Source: Gammaproteobacteria bacterium
Lineage (GTDB): Bacteria > Pseudomonadota > Gammaproteobacteria > SZUA-152
Length of the DNA: 64,000 bases
Direction of reading: 5' to 3'
NCBI GenBank assembly: GCA_029882975.1
Contig: JAOUJW010000008.1
Location: 62,001 to 126,000, forward strand
The notes under the pieces are model-generated. The model saw only the letters and a program-made list of their open reading frames with translations, had not been told where the DNA came from and ran no database searches. This document shows, piece after piece, positions 43,064 to 47,053 of this stretch. Position 1 is the first letter of the stretch, and every line of letters starts with the position of its first letter. A program made the position numbers and the translations under genes.

Positions 43064-45211
43064 GTGGCAATTGAAATGGGGTCAAAGACTGATTTAGGAA
43101 AAAAGGATTTCGGAAAGAGTTTAAAAGCCAAGCGTTTTACCGAAACCAGTTTGGTCACCGCCTTAAAACGGGTGGGACCCCGCGTAGCTCAGAATTTGGC
43201 CAAGCTGGGTATAGTGCGCGTTCAGGATCTGCTGTTTCATTTGCCATCACGTTATCAAGACCGCACCCGGGTTGTCCCGATCAGCTCTTTACGCGTGGGT
43301 ATGGAAGCCGTGGTTCAGGGCGAGGTGGTACACAGTAAAATCCACTATGGTCGTCGTCGAAGTTGGTTGGTGCGCCTTCGCGATGCTTCGGGCCAGATCG
43401 ACTTGCGCTTTTTTCACTTTTCAGCATCGCAACAGGCCGCCCTGTCGAACGGATTGTCCTTACGTTGTTTCGGCGAAGTACGCCGCTATCAACAAGGGCT
43501 GGAAATGGTCCATCCGGAGTATCGTCAAGTGACGGATCTCAGTAGCGTCGAGGAATACATGACGGCGGTATACCCGGTAACCGAAGGCTTGGGTCAGGCC
43601 ACAATACGGGGGTTGATGGACCAGTGCATTATCGACAGTGACCATCTACGGTTTGCTATTTCAGACTACCTGCCACAACAGTGGTTGGCCGAGTTTAAAT
43701 TTCCACCCTTGGCTCAAGCTTTGGCCTATGTGCACAAGCCGCCGCCGGATGCGGATACCGCCTTGTTGGAACAAGGCCTACATCCGTGCCAACAGCGTTT
43801 GGCTTTTGAAGAGTTATTAGCGCACTATCTAAGTTTACGCAATTTGCGTTTAAAACAAACCACACTGAAAGCACCATCCTTGAGAGCGGAAGATCGTTTG
43901 GCAAAACAGCTGTTGCAAAACCTACCCTTCCAATTGACTGGAGCACAGCAGCGTGTTGTTGCTCAATTGAACCAGGATCTGGAACAGGATCATCCCGCGC
44001 AGCGCCTGGTGCAAGGGGATGTGGGTTGTGGCAAAACGATAGTTGCGGCCATGGCTTTATTACGCGCCGTGGAATGTGGATATCAAGTGGTTATTATGGC
44101 ACCAACCGAAATTTTGGCCGGTCAGCATTGGGACAATTTTGAGCAGTGGTTGCAACCGCTGAATGTCTCCATGGCTTGGCTCTCGGGTAAAGTCAAAGGT
44201 AAATCCCGCACGCTTACCCTGACCCATCTCCAAGAGGGTACGGCCCAGGTAATTGTGGGGACTCATGCCCTGTTTCAGGAAGACGTTCAATTCCATTCTC
44301 TTGGTCTGGTGATTATTGATGAGCAACACCGTTTCGGAGTACATCAACGCTTAGCATTACGTAACAAAGGTGCTTCCGGGAACAATACCTACCCACACCA
44401 GATTATTATGACGGCTACCCCTATTCCGCGTACTTTGGCAATGACCGCCTATGCGGATTTGGATTGTTCGGTTATTGATGAACTACCCCCCGGGCGCCAG
44501 GCGGTGGAGACGGTGGTCATTTCCAACCAGCGCCGAGAGCAGGTGATTGAGCGTGTGTACAAAGCCTGTGCCGGTGGTCGACAAACCTATTGGGTATGCA
44601 CCTTGATCGAGGAATCGGACGTACTGCAATGTCAGGCGGCCCAGGACACGGCTGCCCAGTTAAGTCAGGAATGTTCCGGTTTGCGAATTGGATTGATTCA
44701 TGGGCGCATGAGTGAACAAGACAAAACCCAAGTGATGGCTGGTTTTAAACAGGGTGAGATCGATTTACTCGTTGCCACCACGGTGATTGAAGTGGGTGTG
44801 GACGTTCCTAACGCTACTTTGATGGTCATTGAGAATGCCGAGCGATTGGGCTTATCCCAATTGCATCAGCTTCGGGGCCGGGTCGGCCGTGGCCAACAGC
44901 ATAGTGTTTGTGTGTTGATGTACCAAGCGCCCTTGTCCAATAATGCACGTAAACGATTATCGACCATGCGGGATTGCAACGACGGATTTGAAATAGCACA
45001 AGTGGACTTGAAATTGCGGGGTCCCGGAGAAGTATTGGGAACCCGCCAAACCGGTATAATGCAATATCGCATTGTGGACTTGCAAAGAGACCAGGCGTTA
45101 TTGCCCCAAGTGAGCCAACTGGCTGCGGAGATTTATCGGCAGCGACCGGAAATTGTAGAAAAACTAATCAAACGTTGGCTGGGAGAGCAGTTGCAATATG
45201 GGAATGTTTAA
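43064..45211 (+). CDS. recG: ATP-dependent DNA helicase RecG
   Basis: A 715-residue helicase that reverses stalled forks and branch-migrates junctions. It has an N-terminal wedge/OB domain (QDLLFHLPSRYQDRT), Walker A LVQGDVGCGKT (about 318-325), the DEQHRFG box (about 418), TATPIPRTLAMT and C-terminal QLRGRVGRGQQHS. The start is GTG 43064, only 5 bp after ridA; an in-frame ATG at 43076 is the alternative. The N-terminus is about 20 residues longer than in E. coli. Confidence 0.96.
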   Translation: MAIEMGSKTDLGKKDFGKSLKAKRFTETSLVTALKRVGPRVAQNLAKLGIVRVQDLLFHLPSRYQDRTRVVPISSLRVGMEAVVQGEVVHSKIHYGRRRSWLVRLRDASGQIDLRFFHFSASQQAALSNGLSLRCFGEVRRYQQGLEMVHPEYRQVTDLSSVEEYMTAVYPVTEGLGQATIRGLMDQCIIDSDHLRFAISDYLPQQWLAEFKFPPLAQALAYVHKPPPDADTALLEQGLHPCQQRLAFEELLAHYLSLRNLRLKQTTLKAPSLRAEDRLAKQLLQNLPFQLTGAQQRVVAQLNQDLEQDHPAQRLVQGDVGCGKTIVAAMALLRAVECGYQVVIMAPTEILAGQHWDNFEQWLQPLNVSMAWLSGKVKGKSRTLTLTHLQEGTAQVIVGTHALFQEDVQFHSLGLVIIDEQHRFGVHQRLALRNKGASGNNTYPHQIIMTATPIPRTLAMTAYADLDCSVIDELPPGRQAVETVVISNQRREQVIERVYKACAGGRQTYWVCTLIEESDVLQCQAAQDTAAQLSQECSGLRIGLIHGRMSEQDKTQVMAGFKQGEIDLLVATTVIEVGVDVPNATLMVIENAERLGLSQLHQLRGRVGRGQQHSVCVLMYQAPLSNNARKRLSTMRDCNDGFEIAQVDLKLRGPGEVLGTRQTGIMQYRIVDLQRDQALLPQVSQLAAEIYRQRPEIVEKLIKRWLGEQLQYGNV

Positions 45212-45307
45212 GCATCGTTGAGATGCAGGCGTGTAAGCTATTCCCTACATGGAGTGTAGTCTATGTATCCCTAATGCTGAATACTGTACTATTTCCTACT
45301 GAGTCAC

Positions 45308-45336
45308 TTGACTATTAATCAGCGCAGGTCTAAAAA
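45308..45336 (+). promoter_or_regulatory. Predicted sigma-70 promoter of a small RNA
   Basis: TTGACT (45308-45313), a 17-bp spacer and TAAAAA (45331-45336). The expected start site is about 45343, right where a hairpin-terminator unit begins. Confidence 0.5.
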
Positions 45337-45342
45337 TGTAAG

Positions 45343-45413
45343 AAGGCCGCCATTGTACTCCTCCCTCATACAGTGGCGGCTTATTAGCGGTCTTTCCCCA
45401 AGACCGCTTTTTT
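45343..45413 (+). ncRNA. Candidate small RNA with C-rich anti-Shine-Dalgarno loop
   Basis: A predicted transcript of about 71 nt, not recognised as a known family. Hairpin 1 is a 12-bp stem (45346-45357 with 45369-45380, one G-T wobble) whose 11-nt loop reads CTCCTCCCTCA. A 5-nt linker leads to hairpin 2, a perfect 9-bp stem (45386-45394 with 45400-45408) and six T, an intrinsic terminator. A good promoter lies immediately upstream. C-rich loops of this kind in known small RNAs pair with ribosome-binding sites. The unit is over 130 bp from recG, so it is not simply the recG terminator. Alternatively the DNA acts on the minus strand, where the loop reads as a Shine-Dalgarno sequence. Confidence 0.5.
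45386..45413 (+). terminator. Intrinsic terminator in the recG-bioA gap
   Basis: AGCGGTCTT and AAGACCGCT form a perfect 9-bp stem with loop TCCCC, followed by TTTTTT on the plus strand. It may end the candidate small RNA and any read-through from recG. Confidence 0.85.
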
Positions 45414-45417
45414 ATTC

Positions 45418-45504
45418 TCAAAATTTAGCGTTATTGAGGCTTTTTTGTCCCACCAAAGCTTTGAACTCCCCGTTTAAGCTTCCGCTGAAGGCTCGTACGC
45501 CCAT
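45418..45504 (-). CDS. Possible 28-residue small protein
   Basis: On the minus strand AGGGAGGAGG lies 5 nt before ATG 45504, an almost ideal ribosome-binding site, and the frame runs 28 codons to a TGA. The peptide begins MGVRAFSGSLNGEF and is polar and basic with no transmembrane stretch; I recognise no family. A candidate promoter on the same strand has TTGAGA (45621-45616), 16 bp and TAAATA (45599-45594). The gene would converge on the candidate small RNA, whose loop is perfectly complementary over 9 nt to its Shine-Dalgarno sequence. It may be only a leader ORF or chance. Confidence 0.35.
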   Translation of the reverse strand: MGVRAFSGSLNGEFKALVGQKSLNNAKF

Positions 45505-45703
45505 GACAACCTCCTCCCTGCTTGTCGATTTCCTTTTCATCCCTTGTTGTTTTACTTACATTCCTTTAAGTGTTTGTGGTTCAATAGTTTTTATATTTAC
45601 AGCAAAAACCACTTATCTCAACTATACTAGAACGCGGCCATTCTATAACTATATGAATATATGATACTTTAACGCTGTATGAACGGACTTTACCATAAAG
45701 CTC

Positions 45704-47053
45704 ATGGGTAATAAAGATATTGTATGTAGGGATTTGTCTGTCTTATGGCATCCTTGTACTCAAATGAAAGACCATGAAACATTACCTTTAATCCCCATTA
45801 AACACGGAGAAGGTATATGGCTCAGTGATTTTGACGGCAATCGCTATATGGATGCCATCAGTTCCTGGTGGGTTAACTTGTTTGGTCATTCCAATCCTCG
45901 GATCAATAACGCTGTGAAACAGCAAATGGATCAGTTGGAGCATGTCATCCTGGCCGGATTTACCCATGAATCCGTGGTCAGTCTGTCAGAACGGTTGGTC
46001 GCACTCACTCCTGAAGGATTGACTCGATGTTTTTATGCCGACAATGGTTCTTCTGCTGTGGAAGTGGCTTTGAAAATGAGTTTCCACTATTGGCAAAACC
46101 AGGGTCAAACTCAGCGGCGAAAGTTTATCACACTGAGCAATAGCTACCACGGTGAAACTTTGGGAGCACTATCCGTCGGTGATGTGGCTTTATATAAGCA
46201 AACCTATGATGCTTTGCTATTTGATACTTATACCGTGGAATCACCCGATTGTTATTACTGTGAACCGGGTGAGTCCTGGGAAGATTACAGTCGACGTAAG
46301 TTCCAGGACATGGAGCACATGCTACAACAGCACGCCGGCGAAGTGTGTGCTGTTATAGTGGAGCCATTGGTCCAGTGCGCAGGCAGTATGCGCATGTATG
46401 ATTCCATCTATTTAAGCCTATTGAGGCAAGCGTGTGATCGTTACGATGTCCATTTAATCGCCGACGAAATCGCTGTCGGGTTTGGTCGCACCGGGACCCT
46501 ATTCGCTTGCGAACAGGCGAATATCAGTCCGGATTTTATGTGTCTATCCAAAGGACTCACCGGCGGCTATTTGCCCCTTTCGGTGGTGTTGACCACGGAC
46601 AAGATGTATGACGCCTTTTACGCAGATTACACCAGTTTACGAGCTTTCTTACATTCGCATAGCTACACGGGAAATGCACTGGCCTGTGCGGCGGCGTTGG
46701 CAACCCTGGATATATTTGAATCCGATAATGTTTTGGAAAATAACCGAGTGCTCGCCAATGTGTTGGAAGAGGCTTGTGCGGATTTTGTTGACCATCCCCA
46801 TATTGGCGATGTGCGTCAGACCGGAATGATAGCGGCGGTGGAAATGGTAGCGGAGAAAAGCAGCCGCCAACCCTATGATTGGCAGGAGCGCCGGGGCTTG
46901 CAGGTTTATCGTTACGCTTTGGAACACGGTGTGTTACTCAGGCCCTTGGGTAACGTGGTGTACTTTATGCCACCTTACATAGCCACACCGAAACAATTAG
47001 TGAAAATGGTAGAAGTAGCCTGGGAGGGTATAAATCTCGCTACCAAAAACTGA
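45704..47053 (+). CDS. bioA: Adenosylmethionine-8-amino-7-oxononanoate aminotransferase
   Basis: PLP enzyme that makes 7,8-diaminononanoate from KAPA and S-adenosylmethionine in biotin synthesis. The 449-residue product shows LWHPCTQMKDHE, DAISSWWVNLFGHSNP, ADNGSSAVEVALKMS, IADEIAVGFGRTGTLFACE and the PLP lysine in CLSKGLTGG (about Lys283), all diagnostic of BioA. The other bio genes are absent here, so bioA stands alone. It ends 2 bp before the convergent chpC stop. Confidence 0.96.
   Translation: MGNKDIVCRDLSVLWHPCTQMKDHETLPLIPIKHGEGIWLSDFDGNRYMDAISSWWVNLFGHSNPRINNAVKQQMDQLEHVILAGFTHESVVSLSERLVALTPEGLTRCFYADNGSSAVEVALKMSFHYWQNQGQTQRRKFITLSNSYHGETLGALSVGDVALYKQTYDALLFDTYTVESPDCYYCEPGESWEDYSRRKFQDMEHMLQQHAGEVCAVIVEPLVQCAGSMRMYDSIYLSLLRQACDRYDVHLIADEIAVGFGRTGTLFACEQANISPDFMCLSKGLTGGYLPLSVVLTTDKMYDAFYADYTSLRAFLHSHSYTGNALACAAALATLDIFESDNVLENNRVLANVLEEACADFVDHPHIGDVRQTGMIAAVEMVAEKSSRQPYDWQERRGLQVYRYALEHGVLLRPLGNVVYFMPPYIATPKQLVKMVEVAWEGINLATKN

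Follow-up and report, generated by a model that had tools for sequence, protein, structure and literature searches.

A putative small RNA gene with a conserved C-rich anti-Shine-Dalgarno loop downstream of recG in an order of uncultured marine Gammaproteobacteria

The gap between recG and bioA in the window, the whole 64,000-nt stretch of DNA that was analyzed, contains what is probably an autonomous gene for a trans-acting sRNA of about 70 nt that would block translation by pairing its loop with Shine-Dalgarno (SD) sequences. The gene, its structure, its loop, its promoter and its terminator are conserved among relatives. It is a covariation-supported sRNA family found from raw sequence and absent from Rfam 15. 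The features discussed below are as follows.

43064..45211, + strand: recG, the upstream neighbor.
45308-45413, + strand: sRNA element including its promoter, downstream of recG and devoid of coding potential.
45307..45332, + strand: predicted promoter, CTTGACTAT (-35 region)-N12-GTCTA(AAAA) (-10 region), from motif conservation.
45344..45413, + strand: predicted sRNA transcript of ~70 nt, from its fold and the matches of covariance model R1 in the order.
45344..45382, + strand: hairpin 1, with 14 pairs in the window, 11 of them common to the family.
45358..45368, + strand: hairpin 1 loop, CTCCTCCCTCA (= CUCCUCCCUCA), the putative anti-SD seed, from its unpaired probability and the retained C-rich run.
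45386..45413, + strand: intrinsic terminator with loop CUUUCCCCAAG and T run (stem 45386-45408, loop TCCCC).
45704..47053, + strand: bioA, the downstream neighbor in the window; other genomes have a different or a convergent gene there.

RNAfold places the element in two hairpins joined by a short linker with a minimum free energy of -35.4 kcal/mol. Dinucleotide-shuffled sequences average -15.4 ± 3.0 (z = -6.6), and not one of 200 folded as low. Every base in the hairpin 1 loop is unpaired with a probability of 0.93-1.0. The layout agrees with the initial annotation, which had described TTGACT, a 17-bp spacer, TAAAAA, a hairpin with a C-rich loop, and a linker followed by a terminator within 45308-45413. 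All of these are present there, with TTGACT at 45308-45313, TAAAAA at 45331-45336, and a T run that ends at 45413. Two small corrections apply: the hairpin stem has 14 pairs including G-U rather than 12 bp, and TAAAAA is a weak -10 box. The claim that the element lacks coding potential also held: there is no conserved ORF, and a coding ORF over the element was rejected since the overlapping reading frames are broken by indels between relatives. A chance hairpin is ruled out by the z-score and by the covariation described below. The element is single copy in its own 5.18-Mb genome. Promoter-like and terminator-like consensus matches are not more common at this stretch than in shuffles, so the case for an sRNA rests on its relatives.

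The order is represented by 24 genomes, all from one family and known here through metagenome-assembled genomes. BLAST detected a clear homolog in nine other members of this family, and R1 was built from nine sequences. R1 recovered 12 genomes at E 1e-10 or better, followed by G017 and G005, and there are four diverged copies (G003, G007, G011, and G015); the sRNA is present in 18 of the 24 genomes. In 17 of the 18, its immediate upstream neighbor is recG, encoded on the same strand. The exception is G006, where the sRNA and its promoter are located more than 170 kb from recG on the same contig, between a Fic-like gene and a DUF4124-like gene adjoining ntrBC-like genes (names read from the sequences). 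No sRNA follows recG in G004, G014, or G019, and only remnants are found in G009 and G013; the sRNA is therefore dispensable. Two extra R1 matches within the order, one in G009 and another elsewhere in G000, fall outside the recG locus and seem fortuitous. A search of 369 genomes of the class outside the order gave only weak R1 matches at other loci, and the RNA family is confined to this single order of uncultured marine Gammaproteobacteria. The database records that carry the terminator are from uncultured Gammaproteobacteria, and their isolate names suggest that the hosts are vent and sediment metagenome-assembled genomes. The G023 copy is interrupted between promoter and loop by ~220 bp bounded by inverted repeats (CCTAGATTCCGCAGTTGA...TCAACTGCGGAATCTAGG; G023:C76:40000-41500, L115), likely a MITE/REPIN-type insertion.

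The relocated G006 copy retains its promoter, which points to the sRNA being an autonomous gene. The position of bioA as the next gene on the same strand in the window would fit a cis-acting leader or attenuator of the downstream gene. That arrangement is hardly credible: the downstream genes vary, the next gene is cheW-like and convergent in G016, G020, and G022, and a terminator plus ~290 bp separate the sRNA from bioA. Promoter, stem-loop and terminator can relocate together, whatever gene comes next, which argues for a trans-acting sRNA gene.

The promoter, conserved in the form CTTGACTAT-N12-GTCTAnA, is a signature of this RNA. The exact motif TTGACTAT-N12-GTCTA occurs once per genome in 11 of the 24 genomes, always at a recG-type sRNA and nowhere else, and it is near-exact in the remaining sRNA homologs. 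The -10 hexamers of the homologs inspected are TAAAAA, TACATA, TAAACA, TACACA, and others in which the sixth position is never T, and the GTC that precedes the hexamer is strongly conserved. The lack of a final T in all homologs inspected makes a plain sigma-70 promoter doubtful. A sigma-E-like reading of GTCTAA was rejected. The sigma-E -35 consensus is GGAACTT, and the -35 region does not fit it. The -10 box lies 6-7 nt upstream of the foot of hairpin 1 in the homologs inspected, and on this spacing the sRNA should begin with hairpin 1, at a start ~7 nt past the -10 box.

These data also bear on a simpler account, in which the double hairpin merely terminates recG transcription and the promoter is fortuitous. 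A strong terminator does lie directly after recG, and promoter-like matches in the stretch are no more common than in shuffles. This account is nonetheless very unlikely, as the promoter is conserved with a fixed 12-nt spacing, the loop is conserved, the G006 unit is away from recG, and a terminator has no need of hairpin 1 or of a conserved loop. The initial annotation had named transcription only as recG read-through as one outcome that would speak against an sRNA gene, and both the conserved promoter and the relocation in G006 contradict it.

The recG-bioA gaps of G000, G001, and G002 are alignable only at CTTGACTA, the -10 region, GTACTCCTCCCTCATAC, and the terminator. The 17-nt GTACTCCTCCCTCATAC is identical in the three nearest genomes although the surrounding stem has changed. 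A plain MAFFT alignment analyzed with RNAalifold missed hairpin 1, for three sequences with shorter loops were misregistered; the stem of the nine sequences was registered by hand with the shorter loops filled with N. In this alignment, 7 of the 11 pairs of hairpin 1 are changed on both sides. In 19 model-aligned sequences, compensatory changes occur in 10 of the 11 shared pairs of hairpin 1 and in 3 of the 9 terminator pairs, and 96.6% of the cells are paired compared to 19.9-63.8% when the partners are slid. None of 500 shuffles attained the observed values. The 19-sequence alignment was fitted to R1 and is biased toward the model, and registering the stem by hand is not a neutral procedure either; even so, the slid controls fall far short of the observed effect. 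The covariation around a conserved loop that the initial annotation had proposed as a check is thus borne out in relatives, and the pattern indicates that the structure, loop, promoter, and terminator are under selection. Together with the relocation in G006, it supports the proposal of a small RNA with an anti-SD loop.

The strand follows from the same comparison. Read on the minus strand, the loops become UGAGGGAGGAG and UUGGGGAA, each with a GGA, as in an RNA that sequesters CsrA/RsmA. A functional minus strand is extremely improbable, for the conserved T run and the promoter indicate the plus strand, whereas the minus strand has neither a conserved T run after its hairpins nor a promoter.

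All intact homologs have a C-rich pyrimidine run in the loop, and CCUCCC is kept in 13 of the 18 genomes. The loop is reduced to UCCCUC or UUCCUCUC in G006, G012, G018, G021, and G023, and this drift argues that no long target pairing is preserved across the order. The RNA is a compact natural scaffold for comparing seed drift with target drift. The loop composition is better kept than its exact sequence across the order, and the terminator loop UUUCCCC is likewise C-rich and nearly invariant (its sequence is invariant in the nine sequences); both features would suit a decoy whose C-rich loops titrate a protein or the ribosome rather than acting as an antisense seed for mRNA. We consider such a decoy unlikely. 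The SD-complementary CCUCCC is kept in those 13 genomes, well-characterized RNAs built in this way have mRNAs as their targets, and no gammaproteobacterial poly(C) decoy system was identified in the literature looked at.

The preferred reading remains a trans-acting anti-SD sRNA. The predicted RNA is non-coding and bounded by a conserved promoter and an intrinsic terminator, and its exposed, C-rich, SD-complementary loop is kept while the stems covary; both are marks of this kind of RNA. We infer its transcription, pairing, repression, and targets from these features. Transcription would begin from its own promoter at the foot of hairpin 1 and stop at the intrinsic terminator. The rigid stem would present a C-rich loop of 11-17 nt whose core, CUCCUCCC, could pair with purine-rich SD sequences of target mRNAs. 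This pairing would keep 30S ribosomes off, which would lower translation and probably mRNA stability.

The design has precedents in several bacterial groups, where a rigid stem of interchangeable sequence carries a fixed anti-SD loop. Reporter assays back the block of ribosome-binding sites by the anti-SD seeds of NfeR1 (ar14) (PMC10746234). The rigid stems of sX13 from Xanthomonas carry C-rich loops that act on G-rich motifs near start sites (PMC3771888), and the UC-rich anti-SD regions of the NmsR/RcoF siblings of Neisseria repress metabolic mRNAs (PMC5362039). By analogy, the SD-blocking mechanism of NfeR1/ar14, sX13, and NmsR most likely applies to the recG sRNA. The literature on the loop motif covers anti-SD sRNAs of other groups and yielded nothing on this order.

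No Rfam 15 family attains its cut-off in the window, which bears out, as far as Rfam 15 goes, the view that the RNA belongs to no described family. Below threshold, the closest is ar14 (RF02344) at 22.8 bits compared to a gathering threshold of 58.8 (E = 0.0096), which is in keeping with a likeness of design. In both RNAs the stems diverge and the anti-SD loop (CCUCCUCCC in ar14) is kept. However, ar14 has three CCUCCUCCC hairpins and belongs, with NfeR1 and its relatives, to the Alphaproteobacteria, whereas the recG sRNA is found in another class and has one CUCCUCCC hairpin and a terminator with UCCCC as the second loop. The sX13 RNA is also gammaproteobacterial and shares the rigid stems with C-rich loops, but it has three stems with CCCC/CCCCC loops at the polA locus in place of two hairpins at recG, and no sequence match was found between the two. 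RF02278, the Betaproteobacteria toxic small RNA, which includes bdhR1 and S17 (PMC11722255), resembles the recG sRNA in its size of ~60-70 nt and in a C/U-rich anti-SD sequence with the terminator immediately after. Its CU-rich seed differs in being mainly a single-stranded 5' end plus a short hairpin, and RF02278 gave no match to the window at E values up to 5. NmsR and RcoF share the UC-rich anti-SD regions but are sibling RNAs with three stem-loops and a seed between and within the stems. By the tests applied, the element falls outside ar14, RF02278, and sX13 and represents a new RNA family, though of a functional kind already known from other bacteria.

Targets were sought with the patterns GAGGGAGG/AGGGAGGA-N3..11-ATG against reversed-pattern controls. 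AGGGAGGA-N3..11-ATG occurs 13, 8, and 10 times in G000, G001, and G002 compared to 8, 2, and 5 for the reversed controls; these counts are modestly above the controls, and most sites are not before real genes. The sole recurrent real gene encodes a triheme cytochrome c (5' region, AAUAGGGAGGAGGGCUCUAUG); G000 has AATAGGGAGGAGGGCTCTATG at this gene, and G002 shares its SD. The loop alone forms a predicted hybrid of -18.5 kcal/mol with the cytochrome SD of its own genome, compared to a median of -4.95 and a best value of -14.4 kcal/mol for 52 genes of the window. Nearly all orthologs of the cytochrome in 20 genomes keep GGAGGGAGGCTCTATG, AGGGAGGAGGGCTCTATG, or a close variant before the start codon. 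The SD GGAGGGAGG is equally conserved in G008, G014, and G019, where the sRNA was not found, and its conservation is therefore not creditable to the sRNA. The triheme cytochrome c may be a target and is a lead only. The gene belongs to a conserved cluster (G000:C3:205000-216000, L225) whose putative products, with functions read from the sequences, are multiheme cytochromes, a peptidyl-prolyl isomerase, NHL-type proteins, and an outer-membrane-barrel-like protein.

A small convergent ORF of 28 codons lies on the minus strand within 45418-45540, starting from an ATG at 45504. Its SD, AGGGAGGAG, is complementary to the sRNA loop over 9 nt without a mismatch, and CTCCTCCCT is also present at 45511-45519 on the plus strand. 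The ORF is not conserved in G001 or G002.

The recG sRNA led to a far wider group of C-rich sRNAs in Gammaproteobacteria that is linked to rplM. Several of the weak class-wide R1 matches fall at one common locus upstream of rplM, where a different RNA, GACUCCUCCAUCCUCCUUUGGUGG, has a predicted TTGAC...TATATTAGAAAAT promoter ahead of it and a GC-rich terminator behind it. The feature is given in the same form as above.

L300:1500-1600, L286, L291, L226, L228, and others: candidate C-rich sRNA ACUCCUCCAUCCUCCUUUGGUGG plus terminator, upstream of rplM.

This RNA is almost identical between distant families. A second model, R2, built on the rplM-upstream RNA, detects it in 129 of 369 gammaproteobacterial genomes at E 1e-5 or better; rplM is within the fetched flank at 23 of the 30 best R2 loci, and tandem copies occur in G305, G199, G167, and G323. 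Rfam does not report it at the gathering threshold. The RNA scores 36.1 of 50 bits against RF02278 (E = 3.7e-6) and is related to the toxic sRNA of Betaproteobacteria. Several genomes of the order have a variant of the R2-type RNA in addition to the recG RNA, and the window's own genome has no R2-type RNA before rplM. The window matches R2 at 31.2 bits; terminator-only matches alone give 24-28 bits, and the shared terminators explain most of the cross-match between R1 and R2. We regard as a long shot the broader proposal that the recG sRNA is a lineage-specific offshoot of a superfamily of RF02278-like RNAs that spans Beta- and Gammaproteobacteria, usually lies upstream of rplM, and in this order acts from an alternative-sigma promoter as a translational brake on the conserved multiheme cytochrome operon.

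Stretches inside recG (L042:2717-2971, L045:173-403, and L037:2798-3052) match RF02675 (Ysr141) well below the cut-off, and these matches are probably recG coding sequence caught in the model.
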